From Lachnospiraceae bacterium (GTDB lineage: Bacteria; Bacillota; Clostridia; Lachnospirales; Lachnospiraceae): DNA of 64,000 bases. Shown one piece after another: positions 32,075-55,775 of the stretch (the stretch's first letter is position 1; each line of letters opens with the position of its first letter). The position numbers and the translations under genes were made by a program. The notes beneath the pieces were generated by a model. It saw only the letters and a list, made by a program, of their open reading frames with translations. It had not been told where the DNA came from and made no database searches. The stretch lies in contig SVEC01000015.1 of NCBI GenBank assembly GCA_015057555.1, positions 1-64,000 of the forward strand, in the 5' to 3' direction.

Positions 32075-32203
32075 GAAGGATGTGCGTATTTACTTCTCGG
32101 CCGGCCTGCCTAGGGTCGGTCCACGCTGACACGTGCTTCGCAATGGTCAGCTTAGTCCCGACCACTGTCGCGGCCGGAATGGAAGTTATCTCGCACATCC
32201 TTC
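32075..32203 (-). ncRNA. Structured RNA element, copy 1
   Basis: 129 nt, GC-rich against an AT-rich background. Terminal stem GAAGGATGTGCG/CGCACATCCTTC, then CCGGCC/GGCCGG, an internal loop (GCGAC opposite AGGCA), AG.GGTCGG/CCGACCCT with one bulge, and an apical GCTGAC/GTCAGC hairpin. Lies between the convergent citrate synthase and isocitrate dehydrogenase genes. Given on the minus strand because that strand makes all four copies follow a gene in sense. I do not recognise the family; strand and function are inferred. Confidence 0.7.
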
Positions 32204-32217
32204 ATTAATTTTTAATC

Positions 32218-33426
32218 TTATAAACTTTCCTCTAACGTAACTCTGATAGCCTTGATAAAGTCTGCACTGTTGAGTACAGTTACGCTCTCAAGTGATGTGA
32301 TAAGAGCTAAGTCCTTAGTCATCTTACCATCCTCAATAGTCTTGATAGTTGCAGCCTCAAGCTTATCTGCAAAGCTCATAAGCTCAGGAATGTTATCAAG
32401 CTCTCCACGCTTTCTTAAAGCTCCTGTCCAAGCAAAGATGGTTGCAACTGAGTTAGTTGAAGTTTCCTCGCCTGCAAGATGCTTGTAGTAATGTCTCTGA
32501 ACTGTTCCGTGAGCAGCCTCGTACTCATACTTTCCATCTGGTGATACAAGCACTGAAGTCATCATAGCAAGTGAGCCAAATGCTGATGAAACCATATCAC
32601 TCATAACATCACCATCATAGTTCTTACAAGCCCAGATATATCCACCCTCAGACTTCATAACTCTTGCTACAGCGTCATCTATAAGTGTGTAGAAATACTC
32701 GATACCTGCTGCATCGAATTTCTCCTTATACTCTGCATCGAATATCTCCTGGAAGATATCCTTAAATGTATGGTCATACTTCTTAGAGATAGTATCCTTA
32801 GTTGCAAACCAAAGTGTCTGCTTAGTATCAAGAGCATAGTTAAAGCAGCTTCTTGCAAAGCTCTCGATAGAACCATTAATATTATGCATACCCTGAATGA
32901 TACCAGGCTCATTAAAATTATGTATTAACTCTCTAATCTCTGTTCCGTCCTCTGCTGTATATACAAGCTCAGCCTTACCAGCTGCAGGAATCTTCATCTC
33001 AGTTCCCTTATATACATCACCGTAAGCATGTCTTGCAATTGTAATAGGCTTCTTCCAGTTCTTAACACATGGCTCGATACCCTTTACAATAATTGGTGCT
33101 CTAAATACTGTACCATCGAGGATTGCACGGATAGTTCCGTTAGGACTCTTCCACATCTCCTTTAAGTCATACTCTGTCATACGAGCTGCATTTGGAGTGA
33201 TGGTTGCACACTTTACAGCCACCCCATACTTCTGTGTAGCGTAAGCTGAATCAAAGGTTACCTTATCATCAGTTTCATTTCTATACTGTAAACCAAGGTC
33301 ATAATACTCTGACTTTAAATCGATAAATGGATAAATAAGTTCATCCTTAATTATTTGCCAGAGGATTCTAGTCATCTCATCTCCATCCATCTCTACAAGT
33401 GGAGTAATCATCTTAATCTTTTCCAT
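32218..33426 (-). CDS. icd: NADP-dependent isocitrate dehydrogenase (homodimeric, eukaryotic type)
   Basis: 402 residues. [13 protein letters not shown] near the N-terminus, [14 protein letters not shown] (phosphate and substrate loop), the [15 protein letters not shown] metal site and [20 protein letters not shown] cofactor segment are those of the type II (eukaryotic-like) enzyme. Oxidatively decarboxylates isocitrate to 2-oxoglutarate. Monocistronic; the structured RNA copy 1 starts 14 nt after its stop codon. Confidence 0.95.
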
Positions 33427-33468
33427 AGCTTTATTTGCCTCCTAACCAACTTACAAAAATCGTTTTAT

Positions 33469-33496
33469 ATTGTAACATAATATAATTAATTTTCAA
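33469..33496 (-). promoter_or_regulatory. Isocitrate dehydrogenase promoter
   Basis: TTGAAA (33491-33496), 16-bp spacer, TACAAT (33469-33474) on the minus strand, 43 bp before the start codon. Confidence 0.55.
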
Positions 33497-33585
33497 ATAT
33501 ATCTTTGTAAAAAATTGAAATGAATTGATAAATAATTACTTTTATAATAAAATAACACTATCTTGTTATTAAAAAAGGAGTCATT

Positions 33586-34044
33586 ATGAGTTTTACTTAC
33601 AAAGTTCCAAAAAGGAAATCAAATAGAATTACATATAGAATTATGGGAAGTATATTCTTCCTTGTTGCCTTTGCGCAGTTTTTTATGGTAGCTACGGGCT
33701 ATGGAAACCACAAGATGCTTACACTTATCTTTGCCCTGTTCTTAGGCTCCTATGGTATCTATCTTATAGCTGCCTCCTTTAGAAAGCAGGCCTTTGATAT
33801 CACCTACCTATTCAATGAGGATGGTCTTAAGGTGACTCATCGATATGGTGAGACCCAGTATAGCTTTGACGATATCGAGTTTGTAACTATGGTCATCGCA
33901 GATGAGAATATGTTGTTCTACGTGCTTAATGTTAAAACAAAGAAGAATTTATATACTATTCCATTTACTATGAAGGGAGAGCTTTGCGAGAAGATTTACG
34001 AATTTGTAAACGCTCGCATAAAGCATGAGAATAATGAAGCTTAG
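33586..34044 (+). CDS. Small membrane protein, YcxB-like
   Basis: 152 residues. Two membrane helices (about 20-40 and 44-64) in the first half, then a beta-rich cytoplasmic domain (ITYLFNEDGLKVTHRYGETQYSFDDI pattern) that resembles YcxB/PH-like domains. AAAGGAG precedes the ATG. Its 3' end overlaps the start of birA by 20 bp, so they are co-transcribed. Function unknown. Confidence 0.75.
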   Translation: MSFTYKVPKRKSNRITYRIMGSIFFLVAFAQFFMVATGYGNHKMLTLIFALFLGSYGIYLIAASFRKQAFDITYLFNEDGLKVTHRYGETQYSFDDIEFVTMVIADENMLFYVLNVKTKKNLYTIPFTMKGELCEKIYEFVNARIKHENNEA

Positions 34045-34834
34045 TAGTTCACTATTTAACATACCATTTGTTAATAATGTGCTTTTCTATGACACCATAG
34101 ACTCCACAAATAATAAAGCTAAGGAGCTTGCCAAACGTGGCAGTGTTGACGGAAGTTTAGTAGTGGGAATAAAACAAACTGCCGGAAAGGGTCGACTTGG
34201 AAGAAGCTTTGATTCCCAGGATGATGATGGACTATACTTTAGCATTATGCTACGACCTGATGTAGCTACTGAACATTTGTCTAGAGTTACATTGGTAACC
34301 GCTCTTGCTATATCAAAGTCTATAAATAGCTTTTGCAATGTAAGAACTAGTATTAAATGGCCTAATGATATTTATCTAGGCGGTAAAAAGCTGGTGGGTA
34401 TTCTTACAGAAGCCGGTCCTGATTATGTGGTTATAGGAATAGGTGTAAATATTAACACCAAACGCTTTAATAATGAATTATCAGATCTAGCCACTTCATT
34501 ATATCTTGAAACTCATAAGGAATATGACAAAGCAAAGCTACTTGACCGTATATTGCAGCAGTTAAATGACTTATATGAAATGTTTTTGAAAAGCAATGAC
34601 TTATCCTTTATGTCCGGAGAATACAATAACTACTTAGGAGTTCTTAATAAGGATATATATCTTATACCACAGCAGCTTTCACTTAAGATGTCAAATCCTA
34701 GCCTAATAGACACCAATGGCCTAGATACTGTCCATTGTCTAGGCATTAATGAAAACGGTGATTTAATTTGCAGAGACAAGCTAGGGGAGTTGCATTATGT
34801 TAACTCAGGTGAGATTTCGCTTCGTCCAGTATAA
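34025..34834 (+). CDS. birA: Biotin-[acetyl-CoA-carboxylase] ligase
   Basis: 269 residues. The catalytic domain is clear: DSTNNKAKELA, KQTAGKGRLGRSFDS (biotinyl-AMP loop), SIKWPNDIYLGGKKLVGIL and GIGVNIN. A shorter SH3-like C-terminal domain follows. There is no N-terminal helix-turn-helix, so it is a class I ligase without repressor function. Attaches biotin to carboxyl carrier proteins. The start overlaps the previous gene; an alternative ATG is at 34034. Confidence 0.93.
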   Translation: MRIMKLSSSLFNIPFVNNVLFYDTIDSTNNKAKELAKRGSVDGSLVVGIKQTAGKGRLGRSFDSQDDDGLYFSIMLRPDVATEHLSRVTLVTALAISKSINSFCNVRTSIKWPNDIYLGGKKLVGILTEAGPDYVVIGIGVNINTKRFNNELSDLATSLYLETHKEYDKAKLLDRILQQLNDLYEMFLKSNDLSFMSGEYNNYLGVLNKDIYLIPQQLSLKMSNPSLIDTNGLDTVHCLGINENGDLICRDKLGELHYVNSGEISLRPV

Positions 34835-34919
34835 GTTTAAAAATCTTATAGCTTTTCGACAAATTATTTGTTATAATTAATTATATTTATGCGGAACAAT
34901 TATTCTTATGGAGGGTAAT

Positions 34920-35264
34920 ATGGAAGAGAAAAGAAAATATGAGAGACTTCCTATAAAGCTTAAGCTTGAGGTATCAAACCTTTTTAAGCAAGACGGAATC
35001 AAAATCGAGAATTTAGATAGCGAAATCGAGGTATTTGATATTTCTAAGGCTGGCATTGGATTTATGTCAGAAAGTAAGCTACCTATAGATTACTACTTTA
35101 ATGCAACTATAGAATTTGAAAACACTGATGAGATTATTCTCTCAGTTGTTAAAATTCTCTACATCAAATCTATCGGCGGTTCAGGCTACAGATATGGATG
35201 CGAATTTGTAGGACTTCCATCTATGTATCATCGTTTATTTGATGAATACGCTCAGAGCTTATAA
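34920..35264 (+). CDS. PilZ-domain protein
   Basis: 114 residues from the ATG at 34920 (GGAGG at 5 nt). A single PilZ domain: RKYERLP at the N-terminus supplies the RxxxR c-di-GMP binding motif, and DISKAGIGF the (D/N)xSxxG motif. Likely a c-di-GMP effector. No diguanylate cyclase or phosphodiesterase lies in the window. Followed by a strong bidirectional terminator. Confidence 0.88.
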   Translation: MEEKRKYERLPIKLKLEVSNLFKQDGIKIENLDSEIEVFDISKAGIGFMSESKLPIDYYFNATIEFENTDEIILSVVKILYIKSIGGSGYRYGCEFVGLPSMYHRLFDEYAQSL

Positions 35265-35316
35265 AATCAGGGCATAAAAAAACTTCACATAATGTGAAGT
35301 TTTTTTATGCCCCGAT
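35263..35316. terminator. Bidirectional terminator
   Basis: Long palindrome: AAATC.GGGGCAT-like outer stem, an A7/T7 segment and ACTTCACA/TGTGAAGT around a TAA loop. Serves the PilZ gene and the chaperone operon, which converge here. Confidence 0.9.
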
Positions 35317-35712
35317 TTACTGAATAGGAATAAGCTTTATCTTCTCTCTATCAACTGACTTCTGTGGGTTAGTAATAATAATACTTAACACTCCATCCTT
35401 ATAAGCTGCAGTAATATCCTCCTGTTTGATTTTATTGCCCACGAAAAAGCTTCTCTTACAGCTTGTTGCAAGTCTCTCCTTTAGTATGTAATGTATCCTT
35501 GTATCATCCTTTTCTAAGGTTTCTGGCTTGCTAGCTATAATGGTAAGTGTTCCATCCAACAGCTCTGCAGTAACGTCCTCTCTTGAAAAGCCTGGTATCT
35601 CAATCTCTAAGAGATAATTTCCGTCCTTTTCCTGAATATCTGTACGCATCATATTTGGTATAGTTGTAGATGTTTTGTCAAATAAATTAAATGTCTGATT
35701 CTCAAATAACAT
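35317..35712 (-). CDS. Hsp20/alpha-crystallin small heat-shock protein
   Basis: 131 residues from the ATG at 35710-35712 (AGGAGG at 7 nt). Alpha-crystallin domain (about 25-120) with LLEIEIPGFSREDVTAELLDGTLTI and the C-terminal GVLSIIITNP motif. An ATP-independent holdase. Lies 53 bp after the HscC gene and probably shares its transcript, so aggregation-prone clients may pass from this protein to the Hsp70. Confidence 0.93.
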   Translation of the reverse strand: MLFENQTFNLFDKTSTTIPNMMRTDIQEKDGNYLLEIEIPGFSREDVTAELLDGTLTIIASKPETLEKDDTRIHYILKERLATSCKRSFFVGNKIKQEDITAAYKDGVLSIIITNPQKSVDREKIKLIPIQ

Positions 35713-35765
35713 AGTATCTACCTCCTTACATTTAACCACTAATTATGGGACTATTTTACCATATA

Positions 35766-37457
35766 TTACATATCCTCTTCAATAGCATCCAAGAATTCCT
35801 TAAGTTCTTCTCTAGCCTTTTCTATATCACTCTTATTCTGCTTATCTAAGATAGCTTCAAACTCAGTCATTCTATTCTGAATAAGCCTACGCTTGTCACC
35901 AATAGCCTCTTCATACATTCTGTCCCCTCTGAACATAAGAAGCTTGTTCTCTTCTTGGTCTCTAGGATGAATCTTAAGAGCCTCAAGCGCCTTCATTCTC
36001 TCCTCTATTTCAGCGTCAGTCATATCATTATCTTCATTCTTTATAATTACCTTCTTGGTAACCTTGGTAGATATAACCTTTACAATAACCTCAAGAATAG
36101 AGTTTACATCATAGGTATATGTTACATCAATTGCCTCCTGACCAGCTGGACCTACAGGCACAGCTACAACAATATCTCCTAGATAAACATTGTTTCTAGC
36201 GTATCTGCTTTCTCCTTGAAGAATCTTAACTCGGATTTCACTTTGATTATCCCCAGCTGTATAAAGCCTCTCAGTCTTGCTTGTTGGGATAACTGAATTT
36301 CTCTCAATTATAGGAAGATAATGTCCATTCTCTTTATAGCCTCCACTTCTAGTTACCACAACCTCTGTACCTAAAGTAAATGGGCATACATCTGTAAGTA
36401 TTACCTCTCTAACAGCTTCATTTCTTTCCTTCATAGCTGCCTGAGTAGCTGCACCTACTGCTACAACCTCATCAGGATTTATATCTGTATTTGGAAGTCT
36501 TCCGAATAATCTGCTTACAAAACGTCTAACTATAGGTAGCTTAGTAGCTCCACCTACCATAATTACCTCATCTATATCAGCCAGCTTAATATTTGCATCC
36601 TTTAAGCTTCTCTCTATAGGCCTCTTAATCTTTGCCAAAAGAAGCTGACATGCCTTTTCATAATCTGACAAACTAACCTCATACTCGTAGGTTTCCTCGC
36701 CAATCCTGCATTTCATGGTTGATGTCTTGCTATCTTCAAAGCCTATCTTGCAGAGTTCAGCCTGCTTCCTAATATGAACTCTAGTCTTAACATCTAACTC
36801 ATCTAAATCAATCTCGTTATCCTTTGCAAACATTTGCTCTATGATTTCTGTAAAATCCTCACCACCAAGGAAGTTATCTCCTGCTACAGCTCTAACCTCC
36901 ATAATGTTCTCATATAACTCAAGTATTGATACATCAAAAGTACCGCCTCCAAGGTCGAATACTAAAAACTTGGTATTTGCATTCTTCTTGTTAAGACCAT
37001 AAGCAATAGCTGCTGCCGTAGGCTCACTCACAATTCTTTCCACTACAAAGCCAGCCAGCTCTCCCGCCTTCTTAGTCGCCTTTCTTTGGGCATCATTAAA
37101 ATAAGCAGGTACACTAATTACAGCCTCAGTAACCTCCTTGCCCAGAAATTCCTCTGCATCCTCCTTTAAGGACTTAAGTATAAGACTTGAAAGCTCCTCT
37201 GGAAGAAACTTTTTCTCTCCCAATTCGTATTCCTTGGCAGAGCCCATACTTCTCTTAAATACATCTGCAGTTTCATTCGGATGCGTCTGCTTTCTTTCCT
37301 TTGCAGTTTTCCCCACATAAACTGTTCCATCAGCATCGATACTTATCACTGACGGAGTTAGGTTCTCCCCAAGCTTGTTAGGAATAATCTTTGCCTGGTC
37401 CCCCTCAAAATACCCTATTAAGCTGTTTGTTGTTCCTAAATCAATTCCTACTATCAT
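35766..37457 (-). CDS. hscC: HscC-type Hsp70 chaperone
   Basis: 563 residues, shorter than DnaK (about 610-640) and lacking the full C-terminal lid. N-terminal ATPase domain with [10 protein letters not shown]-type phosphate loop, [32 protein letters not shown] and [12 protein letters not shown]. The pattern of the substrate domain ([37 protein letters not shown]) matches E. coli HscC rather than DnaK. The ATG (37455-37457) overlaps the stop of the upstream J/TPR gene in ATGA, so the two are translationally coupled. HscC is a specialised Hsp70 with few known clients. Confidence 0.92.
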
Positions 37458-40400
37458 TTTCCTTCTATCCTTTTTAAACATTCCTCATACAGAGCATTAT
37501 GACCACATATCAAAATAGCTTGTCTAAAGCATAATCTTGCATTCTCGTAGTCCTTCATAGCTTCGTATATTAATCCCTTTTCATACCATGCATCATGGCA
37601 GCTTCCGTAAAAGCAACCAGAGCATCTCCTTATCTTTAGCCCTTTGTCTATAATAGAAAGTGCTTCCTTGTATTTCTTTACTGTTCTATTAAGTCTAGAC
37701 ATCTTAATGTATGCGTGTGGATTAGTCATCTCTGCCGGATTAATAAGTGCCTTTTGAACATACTTCTTTAAATCCTGTCTTAGGGGGTTTTTCTTTTTTA
37801 AAACCTCTACTAACTCACTATAATAATTTTGTTTGCATTCAATGTCAAGATTTACAGCTGTCTCATAATGTCGAACTGCCTGATCATACAAGCCTTTATT
37901 TCTAAGCACAGCTCCCATAGCTGCGAAAAAGCCTGCATGACTGCCAAAACGATTAACTGCAAACTGAAGAGTTTCATTGGCTCTACTTAGATAGCCTTCA
38001 TCCCCGTATATTGCTATAAGCTGTATAACACACTGCTTTACATTTTCATCAAATTCAAATCTATTTATTGAGTCCTCTAATATACTGGTAGCATAGTCAA
38101 TATCACCCATTCTAACAGCTAACTCTGATATATCATAGGCTATATCAGGATTCATACCAAACTCATCTATATATTTGGTATATACCTTCATACTTTCCTC
38201 AAAGCGATTCATACACTGAAGTACTCTGGCTTTATAAGAATATAGCTGAAGCTTACCATTATCATTTGCCACGTAGTTTAATGCCTTATCAAAGCTTTCC
38301 AAAGCCTTGTCAAACTCCCTGTGATGCTCATATATTAAACCAACTCTGCTATAACAAAATGAATTTTCTGGGTCAAGTTTTAAGGCCTGTTGAAAATCCT
38401 CCATGGCACTTTTATACTTTTGAAAAAATCTATTTAAGGTTCCTCGGTTTATATAAGCCATCAGGTCTGGATAAATTTCTATTTGCCTATTGAACATTTC
38501 CATAGCCTGAGCAAGCTTTCCCTGATTCTTTAAAATTTCTCCCATTCTTCCATAAGCTGCTTTGTGATTTGGTTCTAGCTCAAGCACTTTCTCAAATTCT
38601 TTAATAGCCTCATCATATTTTTCACAAAAGCTTAAACAGTTTGCTTTAAGAGTGTGAACCTTAACAATATTATCTAAATCTGAATTTCCGTCATTTCTAT
38701 TCAATATGGAATCTAGAATTTTTATAGCTTCCTCTTCTTTGCACTGAGTTGCCAATAACCTAGCTTCACAAAAGCTTATTCTATCACTATCTATACCCAT
38801 ATCTTTATATTTCTGGATTATAGATTTTGCTCCATCAAGTTGTTCGAATTTTAAATAAACCTCTATCTGAGTTTCATATGGCTCAGCAATATACGGATAT
38901 ATTTCCATAGCTTTACTAGAAGAATCTATAGCTTCCTTTATAAAATCCAGCTTAAGACTGGCCTTGCTCATATAATTATAAGCTATAAAGCTTCTCTTTT
39001 CCCTTCCGAGAAGCTCCTCACAAACAGCTATGCATTTCTCGTAGTTTCCAGTTTCGTACTCCAGCTCACACATAGCCTCATAGGAAAGAATTATCTCGTC
39101 ATGGTCTATGGAGCGTGCCACCTCAATATATTCTCTGGCAGTATCATACTCCTTTAGCTTCAGATGACAATCACCTATAAGAAAATTAACATATCCATAT
39201 CTTTTTTTCTTATCCATTGCCTCCTTGCTATCATCCTCCTTTGGAATAGCTTCTATGGCAGCTTTCCAATTATGAAAGCATTTTAAGGCATTGTGAAATT
39301 CCTGAAGGCATAAATATACTCTACCCTTCAGATTATTATATTCACAGTTTTGTTCCTCACTTGGTTCAAACTCATTTAATATGCTAATAGCTTCTGAAAA
39401 TTTATATATCTGATAATATGACCATCCCATTTCCATAGGAACCTTCTTGTCCTCTGGATTTTCCTGCCTACTTTTCTTAAGTTCATCGATAAGTCCTACA
39501 TTTGCTCTTATCATGCCGGATCGCGCACTGTTATCATAATGATTAATTCTAAGCAGTTCCATAAACAAATCTCTGGCCTTGGCATATTCCCCTATGCAAA
39601 TCTTTTGTTCTGCCAGCTTGCCCTTCATAACATAGCTATCAGGCTTTATAGATAGTGCCTTTTCATAGTACTCTCCTGCCTCATTATAATCACCCAGCAC
39701 AAGCTTTAGATCTCCACAAATACCCATAAAGCTTATATCTTCCGGAAAATCTGTATGCAACAATATTGCATCCTGGTAAAGGTCCTCATAAATATCTCTT
39801 CTAGCTTCCTTTTCCTCAGGAGTTTCACTTTCTGAATCAACATTCTCAAATTCCTGTAGCCTACATTTAATTCTGAGCATCTCAAAATATGGATGATAGG
39901 CATCCATCTCACCGATAAGCTGAATTAATTCCTTTTGCTCTTTATAATCATGCTTTCTAACAGCTAAATCCAATCTAAAATATCTATCTAAGAACTTGTC
40001 AGCAAGCTCATCTCTACACTCTAACAGTGAGAAATCTAATACATCATCATATATAGAATTATTGATAACATACTCTATAAAATTTTCCGGATAGATTTCA
40101 GATAGTTCCTTGGCTCTTTCCTCAATCTCAAACCTATCCACTATAAGCTTCCAAACCTCCTTGGATATGAAAAACTTTTCCATAAGGAACCTTATCAAGG
40201 TATCAAAGGCATCCTGTGATGTGTCAATCGCTACAAATTCATCCCTATCTAAAAGCTTCTCCCATTCCTCTACACTAATTCTTCTAGAGAAATCATTGTA
40301 TAATTCTTTTATACACTTGAGAAGCTCACTATCCTGACTAAGATCATTTTCCTGATTATCTACGTCAGCAAGGCTTAAGGCTTCCTCATAGGCCTGTCGT

Positions 40401-40522
40401 AGTCTCATAAATCCTTCTGAATCATCCTCTGGATTAACATTCTTAAGCTTATCTCTATATGCAGTTTTAAGAATTTCCTTATCCTTGGTTTCCTCACATC
40501 CAAGAATGTCCCAAATATTCAT
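37454..40522 (-). CDS. J-domain protein with tetratricopeptide repeats
   Basis: 1022 residues. A J-like domain at the N-terminus (2-50; [23 protein letters not shown]...[12 protein letters not shown]) is followed by a long array of about 20 TPR motifs (about 240-1020, e.g. [20 protein letters not shown] and [23 protein letters not shown]). The HPD tripeptide that stimulates Hsp70 is replaced by NPE (30-32). No membrane helix. The stop overlaps the hscC start (ATGA). Most likely the dedicated co-chaperone or client adaptor of HscC. A Cys-rich patch ([10 protein letters not shown]) sits near the C-terminus. Confidence 0.9.
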
Positions 40523-40546
40523 AAGGCTCCTCCATATGATTAGTAC

Positions 40547-40669
40547 GGGCTGTGCACGATATACTTTATTGGCCAGCCTGCCTAGGGTGGGGGCACCCGC
40601 AGACCTAAAGATGGTCTGCTAAGACCCCCATCCCTGTCGAGGCTGGGATATAGTATATTGGCACAGCCC
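40547..40669 (-). ncRNA. Structured RNA element, copy 2
   Basis: 123 nt, the most diverged copy. Terminal stem GGGCTGTGC/GCACAGCCC extended by ATATACT/AGTATAT, then CCAGCC/GGCTGG, internal loop CGAC opposite AGGCA, AGGG.TGGGGG/CCCCCA-CCCT and apical GCAGACC/GGTCTGC. Every helix differs in sequence from copies 1 and 3 yet stays paired. On the minus strand it sits between the dTDP-rhamnose synthesis gene and the J/TPR gene, ending 25 bp before the latter's start codon, next to its GGAGG. Confidence 0.7.
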
Positions 40670-40732
40670 TATTTTATTAATTCCATAGTTAGGACAATTT
40701 AAAGTGTAGTCCCATCATCTTTATTTCTGAAC

Positions 40733-41566
40733 CTACGCTAAGTATTCCTTAAGTGCATCCTCCCACTGTGGAAAGGTAAAATCTGTAGTAAGCTTTAACA
40801 TATAGTTGTCAAGAACTGAGTAAGCAGGTCTTTTTGCTGGTGTTGGATATTGGTCTGTTGTAATATGATTAACCTTTGCATCCACGCCCGCATACTCAAA
40901 TATTTTTTCTGTAAAATCAGCCCATGAACAATATCCCTCACAGGTTCCATGGAATAAACCATAGTTATCTGTTGGCTCTAAGGTCTTAATCATCTCAGCA
41001 AGTGCCTTAGCGCTTGTAGGAGAACCTATCTGGTCACACACTACACTAACTTCTCCCTTTTCCTTACCAAGAGTTAACATGGTCTGAACAAAGTTCTTAC
41101 CCTCACCATAAAGCCAAGCTGTTCTAATGATAAAATATTTTTCAGCAAACTGCTTAACAAATTCTTCACCCTCAAGCTTTGTCTTACCGTAGGCTCCAAG
41201 GGGTGCAACCGGAGAAAACTCATTGTAAGGCTCAGTGTTAGTTCCATCAAACACATAATCTGTAGACACATGAATCATCTTTGCTCCAACTTTTGTGGCA
41301 GCAATACTAAGATTTCTAGGACCTATTGCATTAATCTTATAAGCCAAATCCCACTGACTCTCACATGCATTTACATTTGTATGAGCAGCACAGTTAATAA
41401 TAACCTCTGGTCTGTGCTCCATTACAAATGATACTACCTGCTCCACATCTGTTATATCAAGCTCTGCCACATCAGTATTTATAAGCTGAACAGCTTCACC
41501 TTCATATGCTTTATTAATTGCTCTACCTAACTGTCCATTACATCCAGTTACTAATATTTTCTTCAT
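40733..41566 (-). CDS. rfbD: dTDP-4-dehydrorhamnose reductase
   Basis: 277 residues from the ATG at 41564-41566 (GGAGG at 8 nt). Extended SDR fold: NAD(P)-binding GCNGQLGRA, HVSTDYVFDG and the catalytic YGKTKLEGE (Tyr-x3-Lys). Reduces dTDP-4-keto-L-rhamnose to dTDP-L-rhamnose; RfbA, B and C are not in the window. Third gene after glmM and the sugar-phosphate transferase, a cell-surface polysaccharide operon. Symbol rmlD is equivalent. Confidence 0.94.
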   Translation of the reverse strand: MKKILVTGCNGQLGRAINKAYEGEAVQLINTDVAELDITDVEQVVSFVMEHRPEVIINCAAHTNVNACESQWDLAYKINAIGPRNLSIAATKVGAKMIHVSTDYVFDGTNTEPYNEFSPVAPLGAYGKTKLEGEEFVKQFAEKYFIIRTAWLYGEGKNFVQTMLTLGKEKGEVSVVCDQIGSPTSAKALAEMIKTLEPTDNYGLFHGTCEGYCSWADFTEKIFEYAGVDAKVNHITTDQYPTPAKRPAYSVLDNYMLKLTTDFTFPQWEDALKEYLA

Positions 41567-41592
41567 GAATATATCCTCCAACTAATACCTAT

Positions 41593-42987: not shown

Positions 42988-42996
42988 TAATATCCT

Positions 42997-44355: not shown

Positions 44356-44406
44356 ATAAAACAGTCTCCTATGTCAAAACATTATTACCTCGATTATAGT
44401 CCATTT

Positions 44407-44483
44407 TAATAAAAAAGTAAAGCAAAAGCCCTGATATAAAGCAGTTAATATCTTTTACCCTATACCAAAGCTTTCACTTTACT
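44407..44483 (-). terminator. Terminator after the lipid kinase gene
   Basis: Fourteen-base arms (44416-44429 and 44470-44483) pair with two G-T wobbles around a 40-nt loop; six T follow on the minus strand. Confidence 0.65.
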
Positions 44484-44486
44484 AAT

Positions 44487-45479
44487 TTATGATTTTTCCA
44501 TATTATCTAATATTTCTTCTTCATCAAATATATCCTCAGATATAGCTTGTGTTGCTGCTATTTCGTCTATTTCATCCTTATGGCCAGGATTAAGATATAT
44601 GTCAAAGGCTTGCTTAACATTCTCTATGGTAGCCACCCTTTTGTTACCACCAAACTCACCATCTATGGTCCAAGGAATTTCCTCATCGCACTCTATAACA
44701 ATCTTACTAGCCTTACAGGAATAAAACATAGGATTTGAATCATCTATATCGTTAGTAAGAAAGGCTGTGAGTACTTGTCGCAATTCCTCAACAGTGTGTG
44801 GCATCTTAACCAACAGGCAGTCAAACTTTCCGTCATCAAGGATTACATGCTTTGCTCCCCTTATCTTGAATCCAGCCACAGAAAAAGAATTTGTTATCAT
44901 AACGTAGATATACTCGCCGGTAACCAATGCCCCATCTAGCTGTGCCTTAATCTTATATGGATGGAAATCAGTAATGTTCTTTACCGCTTCTACTACATAA
45001 GCTGCGTGACCCATATATTTTTTCAAATTCTGATTAGTATTATAGGACACGTCTGTAAATAATCCAAATGCAGCAATATAGACAAAATACTTATCATCTA
45101 GCTTACCAACATCTAAGGTTTTTTTCTCCCCTCTTACAATCTGGACTGCTGCCTCTGCCGGCTTTCTGGATAATCCAACACTTCTGGCAAAATCATTGGT
45201 GGTCCCCACTGGAATATATCCTATAGGAACCTTTTTCTCTCCCATCTGCATGTAACCACATACAGTATTTTCAAGCGTGCCATCTCCACCGGCACATACA
45301 ATCAAATCATAATTAGCTCCATCTGCTATAACCTTAGCTTCAGCATCCTCAGGACCTGATGTTGGATATGTAGTCACCTCATATCCAGCCTCAGAAAATG
45401 TCACTAATATGTCTAACATATCTGATTTAATTCCTGATTTACCAGCCTTCGGATTAACAATAAAAAGCAATTTCTTCAT
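44487..45479 (-). CDS. Diacylglycerol/lipid kinase family protein (YegS/DgkB-like)
   Basis: 330 residues. DAGK catalytic domain with VNPKAGKSG, the nucleotide loop GGDGTLENTV and PVGTTNDFARSVG, then a C-terminal beta-sandwich ending in EIPWTIDGEFGG. Phosphorylates diacylglycerol or related lipids for phospholipid recycling. An acidic tail of about 20 residues follows. The gene lies 30 bp after queC. It may be read through from the queuosine operon, though with no functional link. Confidence 0.9.
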   Translation of the reverse strand: MKKLLFIVNPKAGKSGIKSDMLDILVTFSEAGYEVTTYPTSGPEDAEAKVIADGANYDLIVCAGGDGTLENTVCGYMQMGEKKVPIGYIPVGTTNDFARSVGLSRKPAEAAVQIVRGEKKTLDVGKLDDKYFVYIAAFGLFTDVSYNTNQNLKKYMGHAAYVVEAVKNITDFHPYKIKAQLDGALVTGEYIYVMITNSFSVAGFKIRGAKHVILDDGKFDCLLVKMPHTVEELRQVLTAFLTNDIDDSNPMFYSCKASKIVIECDEEIPWTIDGEFGGNKRVATIENVKQAFDIYLNPGHKDEIDEIAATQAISEDIFDEEEILDNMEKS

Positions 45480-45509
45480 AAAATATACCCCAAGCTTCTT
45501 CTTAAAGAA

Positions 45510-46166
45510 TTATCTTCGACTTAAATAAGCGTCTAATCCTTTCTTTCTTAACTTACAGGCCGGACACTCCCCACATCCGTCACCTTTAACACCATTGTAG
45601 CATGTAAGAGTCATTTCCCTAACTATATCAAAACCACCTAGCTTATCTGCCATCTCCCAGGTTTCTTCTTTATCAATCCACATCAATGGAGTAATTATAT
45701 CAAAATCATAGTCCATTGCCAAGTTCAGAGTTGTATTTAGAGACTTAATAAATACATCTCTGCAGTCTGGGTATCCGGAAAAATCACTTTGTGATACACC
45801 TGTTATTATATCGGTTATTCCCCTAACCTTAGCAAATATTGCCACGAAGGTTAAAAACACCATATTTCTTCCCTCCACAAAGGAATTGGGTGGTCCCTCC
45901 TCAGGTGCATCCTTATCTACCTGAATATCATCTCTGGTAAGAGAATTTGGAGCCAACTGATTAAGGAGACTCATATCCATAATTGTATGCTCAACGCCTA
46001 ATCTATCACATATTTCCTTGGCACAGGTTAACTCAAGAGCATGTCTTTGACCATAATCGAAGGATACTGCATACACCTTATTATATTTTTTTATAGCCCA
46101 TAGCAAACAGGTTGTACTATCCTGACCTCCGCTAAATACAACTACTGCTTCACTCTTATTTTTCAT
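45510..46166 (-). CDS. queC: 7-cyano-7-deazaguanine synthase
   Basis: 218 residues. PP-loop [14 protein letters not shown] and a zinc site of four Cys near the C-terminus ([19 protein letters not shown]). Converts 7-carboxy-7-deazaguanine to preQ0 with ATP and ammonia. Fourth gene of queD-queE-folE-queC. Confidence 0.97.
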
Positions 46167-46176
46167 ATAAAGCCTC

Positions 46177-46755
46177 CTACTTAAGCATCATCATAAGTCT
46201 GTTCTGCAGACTAGAATCTTCTTTAAACTTACCATTTAAGGTAGTGGTAACAGTTTTAGCCCCCATGCTCTTAATTCCTCTGGCTGTCATGCAGCTATGA
46301 CATCCTTCAATAACTACAGCAACATCCTGTGAGCCCGTTACCTTGGTCATAATGTAAGCTATATCAGTACCAATTCTCTCCTGTAGCTGAAGTCGCTTTG
46401 CCACCATATCAGCTATTCTGGCAATCTTGCTTAAGCCTAATACCTTGCCTTGTGGAATGTAGGCAATAGAAACCTTCATATCATACATAAGTGCCATATG
46501 ATGCTCACAATAGCTAAATACCTCTATATCCTTAACCAATACCATATCCTCAGTAAGATATCCCGGCTGTTCAAAGGACTTATCAAACATAGCAGCAATC
46601 TCATCGTTGCTGTAGTTCATTCCCTCAAAAACCTCCTCATACATACGAGCCACACGGTCTGGAGTGTCCTTTAATCCCTCTCTCTCCGGGTCGTCTCCCA
46701 AAGCTATTAATATTCCCTTAATATGTTCTCTAATTGCATACTTATCTATTGCCAT
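46177..46755 (-). CDS. folE: GTP cyclohydrolase I
   Basis: 192 residues with zinc and catalytic motifs [12 protein letters not shown] and [12 protein letters not shown]. Forms dihydroneopterin triphosphate from GTP. Within the queuosine cluster it feeds QueD; the same product serves folate synthesis. One bp after queE and 10 bp before queC. Confidence 0.97.
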
Positions 46756-46756
46756 C

Positions 46757-47425
46757 TTAAACTCCCTTTCTATTTGGATCCCAAATGTACTTATGCATCT
46801 GTAGCTGCAGTTTAACCTTATTCATATTATGCTCCATCATATAATTAACTATATCCTCAGGCTTAATCACACCAAAGGAGGAGCTAAGATATACTGCTAC
46901 CCTATCTGTCAAATTATATTCTTCAATTATCTCTCTGGCCTTGTCTAAATCTTCTCTACCTGATACTACAAACTTCACCGTATCATTATCCCTAATCAAG
47001 TCATAGTTTTCCATAACCATCATATGATTCATTTTACTTCCAGGAAGCTTATAATCAAGGGTAAATGTAACATTTTCTCCTATGTTTATAAAATCATCCA
47101 TAGCCACAGCTCCATTGGTTTCAAGCTCTATTCTTAAATCCTTATCTTTAGATAAAAGCTTGATTAATCTGCCAATGTTTTCCTGTAGCAAGGGTTCTCC
47201 ACCGGTCAATGTGACATTATTAACCCCCTGTTCCTTAATGTAAGCGTAGATTTCCTCCTCGCTTAATATCTCATAGGGAGCGCTAGGTTCATTGGCCCAC
47301 TTAGTATCACAATATGAGCAGTTTAAATTACAGCCTGCAAATCTAATAAATGCAGCTAACTCTCCTGCGCATCGGCCCTCACCGTTTATACTTATGAATT
47401 TTTCAACAACCTTAAACTTTCCCAT
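46757..47425 (-). CDS. queE: 7-carboxy-7-deazaguanine synthase (radical SAM)
   Basis: 222 residues. Radical SAM cluster motif CNLNCSYCD (Cys-x3-Cys-x2-Cys), the [22 protein letters not shown] opening and [10 protein letters not shown]. Converts 6-carboxytetrahydropterin into 7-carboxy-7-deazaguanine. Starts 3 bp after queD and abuts folE. Confidence 0.97.
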
Positions 47426-47428
47426 ATT

Positions 47429-47848
47429 CTACTCACTATAAGTGGCGCAGTTATTAGGTGTCTCATAGACAGTCGACTTAGCCACTTTGTATCCTTTATC
47501 TAACATTTCATTATAAAAATATTGTGCAAAATTCTCTGCAGTTGGACGAAATCCAACCTGAATAATTCTAAAGTCCTCTTCCTCTAAGGCTTCCATAGTT
47601 TTAGACTTAAGGCTTCCTTCCTCTATTATTAGAGAGTGGTCTAAATTATCCACCAAGGTACCCAAATCAGCTTTTAATGTAGAGAAATCCACTATCATAC
47701 CTCTACATTGACCCTCTGACTCTAAGTTTTCACTGGAAACCTCAATCTCCACGGTCCATCTATGGCCATGAATATTTGAGCACTTGCCCTCATAGCCCTT
47801 TAAAAAATGTGCGCTGTCAAAGCTGGCGCTGGTTTTTAAGGTGTACAT
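47429..47848 (-). CDS. queD: 6-carboxytetrahydropterin synthase
   Basis: 139 residues from the ATG at 47846-47848 (AGGAGG at 7 nt). Zinc-binding FDSAHFLKG and IHGHRW with catalytic Cys in GKCSNIHGH; a YETPNN-type C-terminus. Makes 6-carboxytetrahydropterin from dihydroneopterin triphosphate. First gene of the preQ0 operon. Just upstream, instead of a recognisable preQ1 riboswitch, lies structured RNA copy 3. Confidence 0.97.
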   Translation of the reverse strand: MYTLKTSASFDSAHFLKGYEGKCSNIHGHRWTVEIEVSSENLESEGQCRGMIVDFSTLKADLGTLVDNLDHSLIIEEGSLKSKTMEALEEEDFRIIQVGFRPTAENFAQYFYNEMLDKGYKVAKSTVYETPNNCATYSE

Positions 47849-47873
47849 AGTATTTTCCTCCTTATTTATTTGC

Positions 47874-47997
47874 AAAGAAGCGGCGTTGCTACATATTGGC
47901 CGGCCTGCCTAGGGTCGGTCCTCGCTGACACTTGAGACGGTCAGCTTAGTCCCGACCACTGTCGCGGCCGGAATATAATTTTAGGCGCAGCTTCTTT
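47874..47997 (-). ncRNA. Structured RNA element, copy 3
   Basis: 124 nt. Terminal stem AAAGAAGC/GCTTCTTT continued by GCG/CGC and ATATT/AATAT; core identical in pattern to copy 1 (CCGGCC/GGCCGG, CGAC opposite AGGCA, GGTCGG/CCGACC, apical GCTGAC/GTCAGC). On the minus strand it follows the thrC terminator and ends 9 bp before the AGGAGG of queD, so it would form the 5' leader of the queuosine operon. Whether it regulates that operon is unknown. Confidence 0.7.
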
Positions 47998-48014
47998 ATA
48001 TAATCCTGTCAACT

Positions 48015-48048
48015 AAAAAACACCGTAAGCAGGTATCTACTTACGGTG
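48015..48048 (-). terminator. Terminator downstream of thrC
   Basis: Stem CACCGTAAG (48021-48029) and CTTACGGTG (48040-48048) followed by six T on the minus strand; ends the thrC transcript about 130 nt after its stop codon. Confidence 0.85.
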
Positions 48049-48174
48049 CAATAATTCTAATCCGGCATACAACTATGTGTAGCCTTATGCATCATAATAG
48101 TCCTGGTTTTGTTTATAGACAGGATGGTACAAACGAACTGTCTTGTGTAATTTTATGTAGGCCAAGGGCCCATC
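48049..48174 (-). other. thrC 3' untranslated region with competing helices
   Basis: 126 nt between the thrC stop and its terminator. On the transcript AGGATGG at the stop codon can pair with CCATCCT, while overlapping CTGTC can pair with an upstream GACAG; a GGC-TACA/TGTA-GCC hairpin follows. The alternatives exclude each other, which would fit a switch, but I recognise no riboswitch class and only one copy is seen. Confidence 0.3.
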
Positions 48175-49662
48175 CTATACTCCAAGGAACTCCTTAACTA
48201 CCTTAAGCATATCTTCCTTGTCACATACTGTGTTATGACGTATCGGAGCTGTTCTAATGTCCTCGATGGCTTGAGGTACCTTAACTCCTGAGAGACGGTT
48301 AAGCTCATCTACAAGGTCAAAATCACTCTGCTTGTCATACTCTGCGTCGATTGAGTTCATAACGCTTCTTGTAAACTTGTATGGGCTTGCTGTAGAAGCA
48401 ATAACTGTTGGAGTATTATCTCCTGTTGAAGCCACATACTTATCGTATACATTTGCAGCAACTGCAGTATGGGTATCCATAATGTAGTTGTCTGATTCAT
48501 AAACCTTCTTAATGGTAGCTGAAGTCTCAGCTTCTGATGCATAGTTTCCGTAGAAGCTTGCAAGGTTAGCCTTCATATCATCAGTGATTGTGTACTCACC
48601 CTGGCTGTTTAATGCCATCATAAGCTCTTTGTTCTTAGCAGCATCATTTCCAGCAATCTTATAGATAAGTCTCTCAAGGTTACTTGAGATGAGAATATCC
48701 ATAGATGGTGATGTTGTAAGGATGAAATCTCTATTTCTGTTATAGCTTCCTGTCTCGAAAAAGTCATATAATACCTTGTTCTCATTTGAAGCGCAAATAA
48801 ACTTAGCTATAGGAAGTCCCATCTCCTTAGCATAGTAAGCAGCTAAAATATTACCGAAGTTACCTGTTGGAACTACTACATTAATCTTATCTCCCGCCTT
48901 AATATCACCATTTGCCACAAGTCTAGTATATGCATATACATAGTAAACCATCTGTGGTACAAGACGACCGATATTAATAGAGTTTGCTGATGAGAACTGA
49001 TATCCCTTAGTTCCAAGGTACTCATTAAGCTCTACATCTGAGAACATATTCTTAACACCTGTCTGAGCATCATCAAAGTTACCAGTGATACCAACTACAA
49101 ATGTGTTGTCACCCTTCTGAGTAACCATCTGCTTCTCCTGAATTGGACTAACACCATTCTTAGGATAAAATACAATAATCTTAGTTCCAGGAACATCTGC
49201 AAAGCCTGCAAGGGCAGCCTTACCGGTATCTCCTGAAGTAGCTGTAAGAATAACGATTTCATTCTCCACGTTGTTCTTCTTTGCTGATGTAGTTAAGAGA
49301 TATGGGAGAATTGAAAGTGCCATATCTTTAAATGCTATAGTTGAACCATGGAATAACTCTAAGTAATAAGCCCCTGCCTTCTTAACAAGAGGTGCAATCT
49401 CCTTAGTGTCAAACTTATCATCATATGCGCTGTTAATACAGTGCATCAACTCTTCCTCAGTAAAGTCAGTAAGCATAAGCTTCATAACATTATATGCAAC
49501 CTGACGGTAATCCATCTTTGAAAGTTCCTCTAATGATACATCAAATGCAGGAATACTATCTGGAACAAAAAGACCTCCCTCATTAGCAAGGCCCTTCAAT
49601 ATAGCCATAGAAGCTGTAGCTGTCTCGTTAGCATTTCTGGTACTTTTGTATATTAATTCCAT
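48175..49662 (-). CDS. thrC: Threonine synthase
   Basis: 495 residues, the long class of threonine synthase. N-terminal YKSTRN start, PLP lysine in STIAFKDMALSIL, TATSGDTGKAALAGF and the PTGNFGNILAAYYAKEMG phosphate loop. Converts O-phosphohomoserine to threonine. AGGAG precedes the ATG. Monocistronic, with its own terminator 130 bp downstream. Confidence 0.96.
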   Translation of the reverse strand: MELIYKSTRNANETATASMAILKGLANEGGLFVPDSIPAFDVSLEELSKMDYRQVAYNVMKLMLTDFTEEELMHCINSAYDDKFDTKEIAPLVKKAGAYYLELFHGSTIAFKDMALSILPYLLTTSAKKNNVENEIVILTATSGDTGKAALAGFADVPGTKIIVFYPKNGVSPIQEKQMVTQKGDNTFVVGITGNFDDAQTGVKNMFSDVELNEYLGTKGYQFSSANSINIGRLVPQMVYYVYAYTRLVANGDIKAGDKINVVVPTGNFGNILAAYYAKEMGLPIAKFICASNENKVLYDFFETGSYNRNRDFILTTSPSMDILISSNLERLIYKIAGNDAAKNKELMMALNSQGEYTITDDMKANLASFYGNYASEAETSATIKKVYESDNYIMDTHTAVAANVYDKYVASTGDNTPTVIASTASPYKFTRSVMNSIDAEYDKQSDFDLVDELNRLSGVKVPQAIEDIRTAPIRHNTVCDKEDMLKVVKEFLGV

Positions 49663-49768
49663 ATCTAAAACTCCTCATAAATATATTAGTAATTTAACCA
49701 AAAGGATAATAACACATTAAAATTATAAAAACAAGTAATTAATGCTTATATTTCCTTATATTATCCAG

Positions 49769-50578
49769 TTACTTAACTAAGAATACTTCTGCCTTTTGTC
49801 TACCAAAGTATAGTGCCTCTGTATGGGATTCAAAATAAATATCTATACGATTACCCTTTATAGCACCTCCCGTATCCTCTGCAGTATATATCTTTCCATT
49901 TATTACTACCTTGGAACCAAATGGTATTACACTTGTATCTGTAGCAATTGTACGTCCTTGAGTAGCTCTTGTTCCACTTGCTGTTGTAGGATTAGTCATA
50001 TTACTGTAGATACCACAGCAAATTGGACATGGACAATATGCTGTAAGCTCAAACATTCCCAAACTCACATATGTACCATTTTCATCAGCAAAAGTATATT
50101 GTGCATTTGAACCAGCTGTAACTGTATTACCTGAGGATGGTGGACCCTGGATATTTGGATCATATATTCCAATCTCAGCCTGTGCCATAACCTGTACGTC
50201 AAGTATCTCCTGAGCTGCCTGTTTTTCTCTCTCTTCTTGTCTAGCAGTGAGAATCTCCTGGATTTCATTCTCAGTCTTGGCTATAGTTTCGGCCTGCTCT
50301 GACACATAATCCTTATTAACCATCTGTTCATAGGAAATATTATCCACATAGAACACATTCCCTGAAAAAGCTTCCTTATCAGCTGCTACTGTTGGAATTG
50401 TCATCATAACACCTGATGGCATTCTACTTTCAGTTATTCTCATAGCTAGGGTTGTGCCACATATAACCATTAATGCAAGCACTACTATGGCTGATCCTAT
50501 ATATCTTCCGTATTCAGTCATTATTTCTGTTGTTTTTTCAAATACTTGGCTTTTGAATTTCTTTAATTTTTCTTTCAT
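49769..50578 (-). CDS. 3D-domain cell-wall protein (RpfB/YabE-like)
   Basis: 269 residues from the ATG at 50576-50578. One N-terminal membrane helix (about 28-46) anchors it; a coiled, Gln/Glu-rich stalk (about 85-125) is followed by a 3D domain (about 165-269) with the catalytic-type FELTAYCPCPICCG, TASGTRATQGRTIATD and the closing EDTGGAIKGNRIDIYF, whose three Asp give the domain its name. The fold resembles MltA-type lytic transglycosylases. A Cys-rich motif (CPCPICC) marks this subfamily. Preceded by a consensus promoter. Confidence 0.9.
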   Translation of the reverse strand: MKEKLKKFKSQVFEKTTEIMTEYGRYIGSAIVVLALMVICGTTLAMRITESRMPSGVMMTIPTVAADKEAFSGNVFYVDNISYEQMVNKDYVSEQAETIAKTENEIQEILTARQEEREKQAAQEILDVQVMAQAEIGIYDPNIQGPPSSGNTVTAGSNAQYTFADENGTYVSLGMFELTAYCPCPICCGIYSNMTNPTTASGTRATQGRTIATDTSVIPFGSKVVINGKIYTAEDTGGAIKGNRIDIYFESHTEALYFGRQKAEVFLVK

Positions 50579-50678
50579 TCTTATCACCAACCTTAATTAT
50601 AAAAGACTAATTTTTGCCTAGGTTTTATGTCTTTCTTCTTTCAAATATGTTACAAATCAATTACATAACACTATAGTG

Positions 50679-50707
50679 ATTATAAGTTAGAGTACTATAA
50701 CGGTCAA
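50679..50707 (-). promoter_or_regulatory. Promoter of the 3D-domain gene
   Basis: TTGACC (50702-50707), 17-bp spacer, TATAAT (50679-50684) on the minus strand, about 100 bp before the start codon. Confidence 0.75.
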
Positions 50708-50787
50708 GCCTTTTCACATTTTTTTCTAGACATAAATCCCCTTTAGATTTATACTTTTTCTATAATACTACAAGGATATACAAGATT

Positions 50788-51570
50788 ATGGAAAAAATGG
50801 GAGTATATAAAGCCACAAAAAAAGACGGTTCCTTGTACTATAGAGCCTCTTTTACATACAAAGGTAAGCATATTAGCTTGGGAAGCTACACGTCAAGTGA
50901 TGAAGCTCACCAGGCTTATTTAGATGCAAAGATGGTTGTAGAAGATATAGCTATAACCTTACAGGATTTTAATAGCTGTAAAATACTTTCCCACAACAAA
51001 TTCATAAGCTTGCTTAACTATAGAGATAATGCTATCTATATTTCCACACCAATTTATATTAGAAAACAGTATTTTGAATATTATCTAGACAAAAACACAG
51101 TATTAAAATTTGACCGAGACGACCTTTTCTTCTATGCATCTCATAAAATTCAAAAGCGTGGTGGGTATCTATTTGTGTGTGATTATGGAAGCCAATACAA
51201 AATCCTCAGTCGATTGGGAATTAAGCCCTTTGCAGTATATGGTAGAGACTACATAATGGCTAACGGGGATCAAAATGATTATAGATATTCAAACATCAAG
51301 ATAATTAACAACTACATAGGTGTTAGGGCTGAAACCAAAAACGGAATCACCAGCTATACAGTCTACATTCACATAAATGGAGACTACCTTGTAGGGAAGT
51401 ACTCTAATGAAATTCAGGCTGCTGTAGCCTACAACAAGGCCGCAGACACACTTAACAGTATGGGACTTGAGAAAGCTTTTTTACGCAACTACATCACTAG
51501 CCTCAAATCTGCAGAGTATAGAGAACTGTATAACAGCACGAAGATTTCCAAAAAGCTGTATCATATATAA
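50788..51570 (+). CDS. AP2-domain protein with degenerate HNH-like core
   Basis: 260 residues. Two AP2-type DNA-binding domains, about 4-50 (GVYKATKKDGSLYYRASFTYKG, then LGSYTSSDEAHQAY) and 176-222 (YIGVRAETKNGITSYTVYIHING). Between them the segment YIMANGDQNDYRYSNIKII (about 154-172) follows the pattern of HNH homing endonucleases (HHINGDKLDNRxxNL) but lacks the catalytic His pair. Likely a former mobile endonuclease turned DNA-binding protein. TATAAT lies 22 bp before the ATG with weak -35 and SD. Structured RNA copy 4 begins 53 bp after its stop. Confidence 0.8.
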   Translation: MEKMGVYKATKKDGSLYYRASFTYKGKHISLGSYTSSDEAHQAYLDAKMVVEDIAITLQDFNSCKILSHNKFISLLNYRDNAIYISTPIYIRKQYFEYYLDKNTVLKFDRDDLFFYASHKIQKRGGYLFVCDYGSQYKILSRLGIKPFAVYGRDYIMANGDQNDYRYSNIKIINNYIGVRAETKNGITSYTVYIHINGDYLVGKYSNEIQAAVAYNKAADTLNSMGLEKAFLRNYITSLKSAEYRELYNSTKISKKLYHI

Positions 51571-51623
51571 GATAAATCCAATGCCTTGCAGAGTGCAATG
51601 CTAAATATTTTATTAGAAACCAT

Positions 51624-51746
51624 AAAGGATGTGCGCCACAACGTATCAACCGGGCGCGGCAGGGTTCTGCGGAGCTGACCATTGTAGTGTCAGCGAAGCA
51701 GAATCCCTAGACAGACCGGGATGTAATGTAGCAACGCACATCCTTT
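51624..51746 (+). ncRNA. Structured RNA element, copy 4
   Basis: 123 nt, in the opposite orientation to the other copies. Terminal stem AAAGGATGTGCG/CGCACATCCTTT, near-identical to copy 1; CCGG.C/G.CCGG, internal loop CGGC opposite AGACA, AGGGTTCTGC/GCAGAATCCCT with one bulge, apical GCTGAC/GTCAGC. The internal-loop change (A to G on one side, G to A on the other) is reciprocal. Lies between the convergent AP2 gene (+) and dus gene (-); a TTTTCTATT tract follows the stem. Confidence 0.7.
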
Positions 51747-55584: not shown

Positions 55585-55775
55585 ATTATATTCTATAGTA
55601 GCGCTCCATCTTACGATGACAGCCATACAGCTATTAACTGCACAGCCAGGATAACAAAGCTTAGATATTCGCTATCCTTCGGCGATTTCCCCTTTCATCC
55701 ACAATCCTCTGATCTAAGTCATCCTGTGAATTACTAATGAATCTCGCACCTCTACCTTATATATTCATGCTTCCC
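55585..55775 (-). ncRNA. Lysine riboswitch (L box)
   Basis: Minus-strand sequence carries the conserved elements: AGGTAGAGGTGCG at the 5' side, GAAAGGGGAAATCGCCGAAG in the middle, CTGGCTGT...GGCTGTCATCGT and the closing GGAGCGCTACT. Lies between a consensus promoter and dapA, with a terminator at its 3' end. Lysine binding is expected to favour termination. Confidence 0.93.

Follow-up and report, generated by a model that had tools for sequence, protein, structure and literature searches.

Small, foldable, dispersed repeats have been described in several bacterial groups. The bcr1 repeats of the Bacillus cereus group are lineage-specific, approximately 150 bp long, multicopy and foldable, and have been proposed to be mobile; we know of no report of their insertion into hairpin tips. 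Repetitive extragenic palindromic (REP) elements are tied to Y1 transposases. In the available part of PMC3733652, REP elements are described as dispersed extragenic palindromes of 20-40 bp. According to the available part of PMC3049150, the SPRITE, RUP and BOX elements of Streptococcus pneumoniae are small interspersed repeats with features of miniature inverted-repeat transposable elements (MITEs) and an enrichment between convergent genes, and SPRITE is similar to a Rho-independent terminator and is located close to the 3' ends of genes. The insertion sequence IS1272 (IS1182 family) uses 'inverted repeat-replacing' transposition, in which a stem-loop is chosen for its structure and not its sequence, and no target-site duplication is made (PMC5678879, available part). 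Here, we describe a palindromic DNA repeat of approximately 125 bp, four copies of which lie in a 64,000 nt stretch of a Lachnospiraceae genome (contig SVEC01000015.1, positions 1 to 64,000; the window). The element is probably a lineage-specific, non-autonomous palindromic mobile repeat, MITE/REP-like, that inserts in the tips of hairpins, chiefly those of intrinsic terminators, and then serves as or adjoins a terminator.

The element fits the MITE/REP-like kind, and what is unusual about it is hairpin-tip targeting, compensated copy-specific arms and in-place inversion. It is like bcr1, by description rather than by sequence, in being lineage-specific, multicopy, foldable and of similar length. 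With REP elements and bacterial interspersed mosaic elements (BIMEs) it shares the character of a dispersed extragenic palindrome, but it is approximately 125 bp long and there is no Y1_Tnp match in four of the genomes that carry it (G000, G008, G012 and G018). Small size, MITE-like character, convergent bias, terminator likeness (SPRITE) and mutual insertion recall the pneumococcal repeats as the available part of PMC3049150 presents them, and the differences from them are the compensated copy-specific arms, in-place inversion and hairpin-tip insertion; again, the likeness is one of description, not sequence. The proposed targeting by stem-loop structure is also reminiscent of IS1272. However, from what the available part of PMC5678879 states, IS1272 takes the place of the stem-loop that it targets and encodes a transposase, whereas the element is gene-less and at one site both resident arms remain.

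The initial annotation of the window had reported four copies of a structured RNA element with one shared architecture. All four stretches are present, and each folds as described, which bears out the common plan:

32075-32203, plus strand: copy 1 (c1), outer arms AATGAAGGATGTGCG and CGCACATCCTTCATT, core 32098-32180.
40547-40669, plus strand: copy 2 (c2), outer arms GGGCTGTGC and GCACAGCCC, core 40570-40649.
47874-47997, plus strand: copy 3 (c3), outer arms AAAGAAGC and GCTTCTTT, core 47897-47974.
51624-51746, minus strand: copy 4 (c4), outer arms AAAGGATGTGCGTTGC and GTGGCGCACATCCTTT, core 51647-51722 on the minus strand.

Each copy has its own, copy-specific outer arms, mostly of 8-19 bp, that are joined by short A+T-rich linkers to a core. 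The core consists of a C/G-rich helix, a 5x5 internal loop, an AGGG...CCCT helix with a variable inner part and an apical hairpin, GCTGAC...GTCAGC. The conserved 5 nt internal loop of the annotation was found, with its letters corrected to TGCCT opposite GTCGC in the orientation of the core, where variants occur. A second correction is that c4 lies on the minus strand; it could be aligned on the plus strand only because the element is quasi-palindromic. The plus strands of the four copies fold 4.5 to 9.1 standard deviations better than dinucleotide shuffles (0/200 shuffles as good as the real fold for each copy), and the copies far outfold shuffles whichever strand is taken. With up to three mismatches allowed, the motif GGCCNGCCTGCCTAGGG has three matches in the window against 0.07 expected.

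When 26 copies were used to build a covariance model of the core (78 positions) and the whole 2.5 Mb genome (G000) was searched with it, a type of check that the annotation had proposed, 40 copies rather than four were returned at E<=1, the weakest at 3.5e-9, with 150 of 233 first-look candidates scored. All 23 exact CCTGCCTAGGG sites in G000 are inside these 40 copies, and reversed-pattern controls gave none. The copies are scattered and mostly single; integron attC-like sites would form cassette arrays with an integron integrase. A search of 61 genomes was run with stricter filters and at most 77 candidates scored, such that its counts are lower bounds; besides the 40 in G000, at least 28 copies were listed in G008, at least 40 in G012, at least 42 in G018 and at least 10 in G031. 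The remaining 32 members of the genus comprise 30 without a match at E<=0.01 and two with one weak match each, G011 (E 0.004) and G032 (E 0.009). Overall, 54 of the 61 genomes had none at E<=0.01. An exact pattern scan of the GTDB collection (84,980 species), which may leave out the window's own genome, found 64 stretches, all from four Lachnospiraceae metagenome-assembled genome (MAG) assemblies that derive from roe deer, sheep, water deer and one unstated source.

In a thrC tree, G000, G008, G012, G018 and G031 form one clade with the element-free G030, G033, G004 and G009 beside it, and an icd tree gives the same grouping for the four sampled genomes G000, G008, G018 and G031 (FastTree, midpoint root, support values not read). 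Judged from these sequences, the element looks like a burst on one lineage within a small group of gut bacteria. Two broader distributions were considered and rejected. Wider spread in the family was not supported, as only the window's own genome matched (1/299, 15 candidates per genome scored). For carriage as phage or plasmid cargo, the core pattern had no exact matches in IMG/VR and a blastn query with c1 returned nothing in phages or plasmids.

Comparison of orthologous sites revealed that the element is present in some genomes and absent from others. Of 77 copies in other genomes, 20 map to 416 kb of G000, some of them weakly: 12 at seven G000 sites that hold a copy, and eight at five sites that do not. 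One G000 site has the following feature:

20709-20750, no strand assigned: plain terminator in G000, TAGTAAAGCGTGAAAATCA-gtta-..., with perfect 19 bp arms and loop GTTA, unusually long.

At the corresponding position in G018 and G012, the element carries its own arms and is flanked by decayed versions of the two terminator arms. The simplest reading would be that 20709-20750 is an empty site and that the element was inserted into the terminator loop in the two relatives. At C11:138094, the copies in G000 and G012 resemble each other in their arms but are opposite in core orientation, and plain terminators are found in G018, G008 and G031. At the c1 site, the same gene pair encloses a plain hairpin, GGATGTGC-CAAG-GCACATCC, in G018 (C27) and G031. 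Nearly the same hairpin follows the citrate synthase gene in G012, where the isocitrate dehydrogenase gene is elsewhere, and an unrelated terminator is present in G008 and at a duplicate of the gene pair in G018 (C55). For the c3 site, 28 of 30 fetched loci were comparable, and visual inspection showed a plain spacer terminator in nearly all of them. G000, G012 and G018 carry the element additionally, interposed between this terminator and the beginning of the following gene; it is absent from G008, where there is a decayed TGTGC hairpin, and from G031, which was fetched separately and has the terminator only. The c4 site in G012 is occupied by a dissimilar copy in the opposite orientation.

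Copies of the element are also nested in one another. In L057 (G000) and, in G018, in L089 and L092, the tip of one copy is taken up by a second, complete copy that has arms of its own and splits the core of the outer copy into two halves, the right one being diverged in L089. In G012, flank alignment places L144 at the site of L092, and L144 corresponds to the outer copy of L092, with similar outer arms but no insert. Nine further arrangements in G000 (L031, L034, L035, L040, L054, L059, L060, L187 and L188), of which eight were folded, are giant palindromes of approximately 250 nt with the element as the apex and further variable helices below it. From the outside inwards, an outer arm resembling AGTGAAAGTTG is followed by two terminator-like hairpins in inverted arrangement (GGTACATA...TATGTGCC), then by an arm resembling GATTATGAAGGGG and by the apical element, and a small hairpin lies beyond the end of the palindrome. 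The helices differ between copies and remain paired. Further giant palindromes are L212, L072, L110 and L111, the last two judged by their arms only. A short-motif search for larger palindromes that lack a core gave five matches, four with the core and one with neither the core nor the terminator part.

The interior of the element can be inverted in place. Among 63 orthologous-site pairs between genomes, which are pairs rather than sites and not all independent, 48 have the same core orientation and 15 the opposite. Eleven pairs have a core identity of at least 0.95 (rounded), and four of these are opposite. Alignment of L086/L129, L146/L075 and L095/L007 showed collinear flanks and arms with a reverse-complemented interior, and these are clear in-place inversions. 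The fourth, L116:5082/L082, is ambiguous because G008 has two oppositely oriented copies there. Mean core identity is 0.839 for same-orientation pairs, 0.823 for opposite pairs and 0.795 for random pairs. The opposite pairs of low identity, including c4 and L147 (0.70), look more like independent copies at one site.

The annotation's claim that helices differ between copies yet stay paired held up. Across the fetched loci, 122 distinct copy sequences were gathered, a few of which are one copy cut at a locus end; of 114 loci, 100 were submitted to one analysis step. The first alignment excluded the partial BLAST matches L022, L024, L027 and L029, the self-reverse L028 and one match that had no locus, and c4 was added to it. 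In an alignment of 105 copies (96 distinct rows), which was fitted to the covariance model and hence leans towards the structure, 98.1% of core cells are paired and 13 of 20 core pairs have changed on both sides (194 cells). A MAFFT alignment of 26 copies has 8/20 pairs changed on both sides. On four of five covariation measures none of 500 shuffles was as high, and no slid structure came near; the fifth, which counts further pair types, was reached by 7/500 shuffles. The outer stem is varied in sequence, with 84 distinct 9 nt inner arm ends among 118 copies (the arm statistics exclude four of the 122 sequences, whose flanks are short), and a copy's own arms form a perfect helix of at least 10 bp in 85% of the 118, compared with 4.4% when partners are swapped between copies. 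Orthologous copies show matched changes in both arms, including a matched 2 nt insertion (GGGCTGTGC vs GGGCTGTGTGC). However, covariation alone is no proof of RNA function because template-switch repair of one arm by the other also compensates DNA palindromes. Template switching between inverted repeats is reported to homogenize the arms and invert the spacer (PMC8604942, available part), and both are given as template-switch products in the available part of PMC7202029.

The annotation had taken the compensatory changes as strong evidence for a selected RNA structure rather than a plain repeat. Such a trans- or cis-acting RNA would be transcribed in the 3' untranslated region or leader of a gene, and its fold would bind a protein or ligand. 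The strong fold, the compensatory changes, the highly conserved internal loop and apical hairpin, and a position just after genes, where co-transcription would occur, are in its favour. So too are the single mismatches in the core, 62 A-C vs 2 G-T, although most of them are at repeated positions shared by related copies; on the minus strand they would be G-U, and by this count taken alone a minus-strand RNA would be possible. Against it, the 1920 core cells contain 11 G-U and 20 A-C, giving no preference for G-U and capping wobble at approximately 1% whichever strand is read. By comparison, a small sample of six distinct tRNAs taken from the same loci has 10 G-U and no A-C in 135 pairs. Single mismatches in the outer stem are 67 G-T vs 52 A-C. 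The signature of an RNA strand, in which G-U is tolerated and A-C is not, was seen in neither the core nor the outer arms. Relative to tandem genes in G000, the core has the same orientation in 10 and the opposite in eight of 18 contexts. As orientation is even and G-U is not in excess over A-C, the structure is kept without a clear strand preference. The interior also flips in place, and the distribution is patchy and bursty. A selected RNA is thus an unlikely explanation, and the annotation's contrast with a plain repeat was not sustained: this is a multicopy repeat, and its changes look DNA-like and strand-neutral, with interior inversion, presence/absence differences and nesting.

The annotation had assigned the element to no known family and asked that Rfam families such as the drum-type clostridial RNAs be excluded first, and the search agreed that no described Rfam family matches. 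Rfam cmscan of the window (at gathering and at E<=5), of nine further loci (E<=2) and of the c3 region (E<=10) gave no match above cut-off over any copy. Two overlaps, both far below threshold, are with animal RNAs, mir-358 at 25 of 65 bits and Six3os1_1 at 13.8 of 50 bits. No described repeat matching the element was recognized in literature searches, which does not disprove its existence.

The 40 G000 copies are found between convergent genes in 21 cases, tandem genes in 18 and divergent genes in none, with one at a contig edge. As a control, a 416 kb sample of G000 has 180 intergenic gaps of 40 nt or more, of which 25 are convergent, 122 tandem and 33 divergent. The context count uses mechanically called open reading frames (ORFs); some of these overlap copies and could be spurious. 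A T-rich tract (at least five T in eight) adjoins the right arm in 75% of copies and the left arm, taken on the opposite strand, in 58%, compared with 23% of nearby flank controls. Together with the arms, these A/T tracts resemble what bidirectional terminators look like, and termination is a predicted function. Seventeen of the 40 copies have TGTGC arms, while plain TGTGC hairpins are rare: one of 34 plain hairpins in the 416 kb sample, and 0-5 pattern matches per genome in 37 genomes. As this rarity stands against 17/40 copies, we conclude that the arms mostly come with the element, and the possibility that they are simply the host terminator's own was rejected.

The same placement could suit a host DNA site, a cruciform or protein-binding element (for nucleoid proteins, gyrase or a nuclease, as in BIMEs) located at gene ends, kept by selection acting on double-stranded DNA, and spread by recombination instead of transposition. 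Strand-neutral conservation of both core sequence and structure, and avoidance of divergent (promoter) regions, are what such a site would show. However, there are no matches in the nearest sister species, presence differs between orthologous sites, and the element nests in itself. A mobile repeat therefore fits better than an essential host site, which is quite improbable.

Compensation without function, in which decaying palindromes owe their matched changes purely to template-switch (quasipalindrome) repair that also inverts the spacer, would account for the matched 2 nt insertion in both arms, the few G-U intermediates and the in-place flips, all of the kind of known template-switch products (PMC8604942 and PMC7202029, available parts), but is very improbable given that the sequences of the 5x5 loop and the apical hairpin are conserved between copies and between species, beyond what repair alone would produce, and given a gene-end placement that is not random. 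Template-switch repair is likely to be part of the answer rather than all of it.

For a mobile repeat, the sequence of events may be as follows. Insertion into a hairpin loop or tip, including those of other copies, is what site comparison reveals and would reflect active transposition. The arms and flanking A/T tracts of the element would then take over bidirectional termination, after which the resident arms would decay, as they have at one site. Template-switch homogenization and selection for a working hairpin could together keep the arms complementary, with selection for termination and for a recognized core adding to arm matching, and the same template switching may cause the observed flips of the interior. 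Finally, some copies would collapse to a short plain hairpin, as c1 and c3 in relatives suggest.

Several observations count against this account. Insertion in action was not seen, and no autonomous copy or transposase is linked to the element, three transposase families having been searched. No target-site duplication was recognized by eye, where palindromic arms and decayed flanks would hide one. Given the genus-wide rarity of plain TGTGC-armed hairpins, simple insertion into pre-existing terminators with this sequence does not explain most copies. The c3 copy adjoins its resident terminator and is not inside it, and the plain GGATGTGC hairpins of the c1 relatives may be collapsed copies rather than true empty sites. 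Core identity at orthologous sites is barely above that of random pairs, and many shared sites may therefore hold independent copies. The genome sources are MAGs, in which a flipped interior may come from misassembly. Many core positions are also strongly conserved, beyond what a neutral repeat needs.

As in MITEs, the element is short (approximately 125 bp) and multicopy (40), has palindromic arms and no room for a transposase gene, and shows presence/absence at orthologous sites. An autonomous relative with the same ends was sought in G000, where all 23 exact core motifs sit in the 40 short copies. Y1_Tnp had no matches in G000, G008, G012 or G018 and one short fragment in G031. DDE_Tnp_1_6, which we take to be the transposase family linked to IS1182, was found in one of 37 genus genomes, G027, which is outside the clade. 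Among the five genomes with the element, a full-length DEDD transposase of the IS110/IS1111 type is present only in G018 and G031; in G000, G008 and G012 the only match is partial and falls within an ORF of more than 1400 aa common to most of the genus:

G000:C5:154003, and in most genus genomes: partial DEDD_Tnp_IS110 match, located within the ORF of more than 1400 aa.

Our guess is that the partial match is an RNase H-like or Cas9-type RuvC part and not IS110. Mobilization by Y1, DDE_Tnp_1_6 or IS110 enzymes was rejected on their occurrence across the clade genomes.

It is possible, if rather doubtful, that the element belongs to a new class of mobile repeat that has no recognizable transposase and targets a hairpin loop by structure alone, with ends set by pairing, arms that evolve freely, flips, and nested giant palindromes acting as terminators. 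A mobilizing enzyme, if found, would be one that places DNA in structurally selected hairpin tips, and it would account for the ability of a bacterial lineage to exchange many of its terminators for a single repeat. Strong covariation, usually taken as proof of a functional RNA, here coexists with flipping at the DNA level, nesting and presence/absence, which calls for caution in covariation-based RNA discovery. The element also offers a natural system for measuring template-switch repair and structure-targeted insertion.

The four copies in the window have the following neighbours:

30682-32064, plus strand, citrate-synthase-like gene, and 32218-33426, minus strand, Iso_dh-family gene: convergent pair flanking c1.
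37454-40522, minus strand, TPR protein gene, and 40733-41581, minus strand, rmlD-like gene: neighbours of c2.
Terminator downstream of the threonine synthase gene, and start region of a PTPS-family gene: neighbours of c3.
50788-51570, plus strand, gene, and 51755-52699, minus strand, dus-like gene: convergent pair flanking c4.

Beside c3 and upstream of the PTPS-family gene, the minus strand at 48020-48170 contains a motif of approximately 45 nt, AAGACAGTTCGTTTGTACCATCCTGTCTATAAACAAAACCAGGACT, with a strong terminator after it; c3 separates this terminator from the start region of the gene. The motif was recognizable by eye in most of the genus loci compared. It is preQ1-riboswitch-like in appearance, with no such Rfam match even at E<=10. 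A tRNA search found no tRNA genes in the window, and Rfam returned two matches elsewhere in it:

15230-15361, minus strand: L20 leader-like match, 52.6 bits, just under the family cut-off of 58.7.
55591-55762, minus strand: lysine riboswitch, 116 bits.

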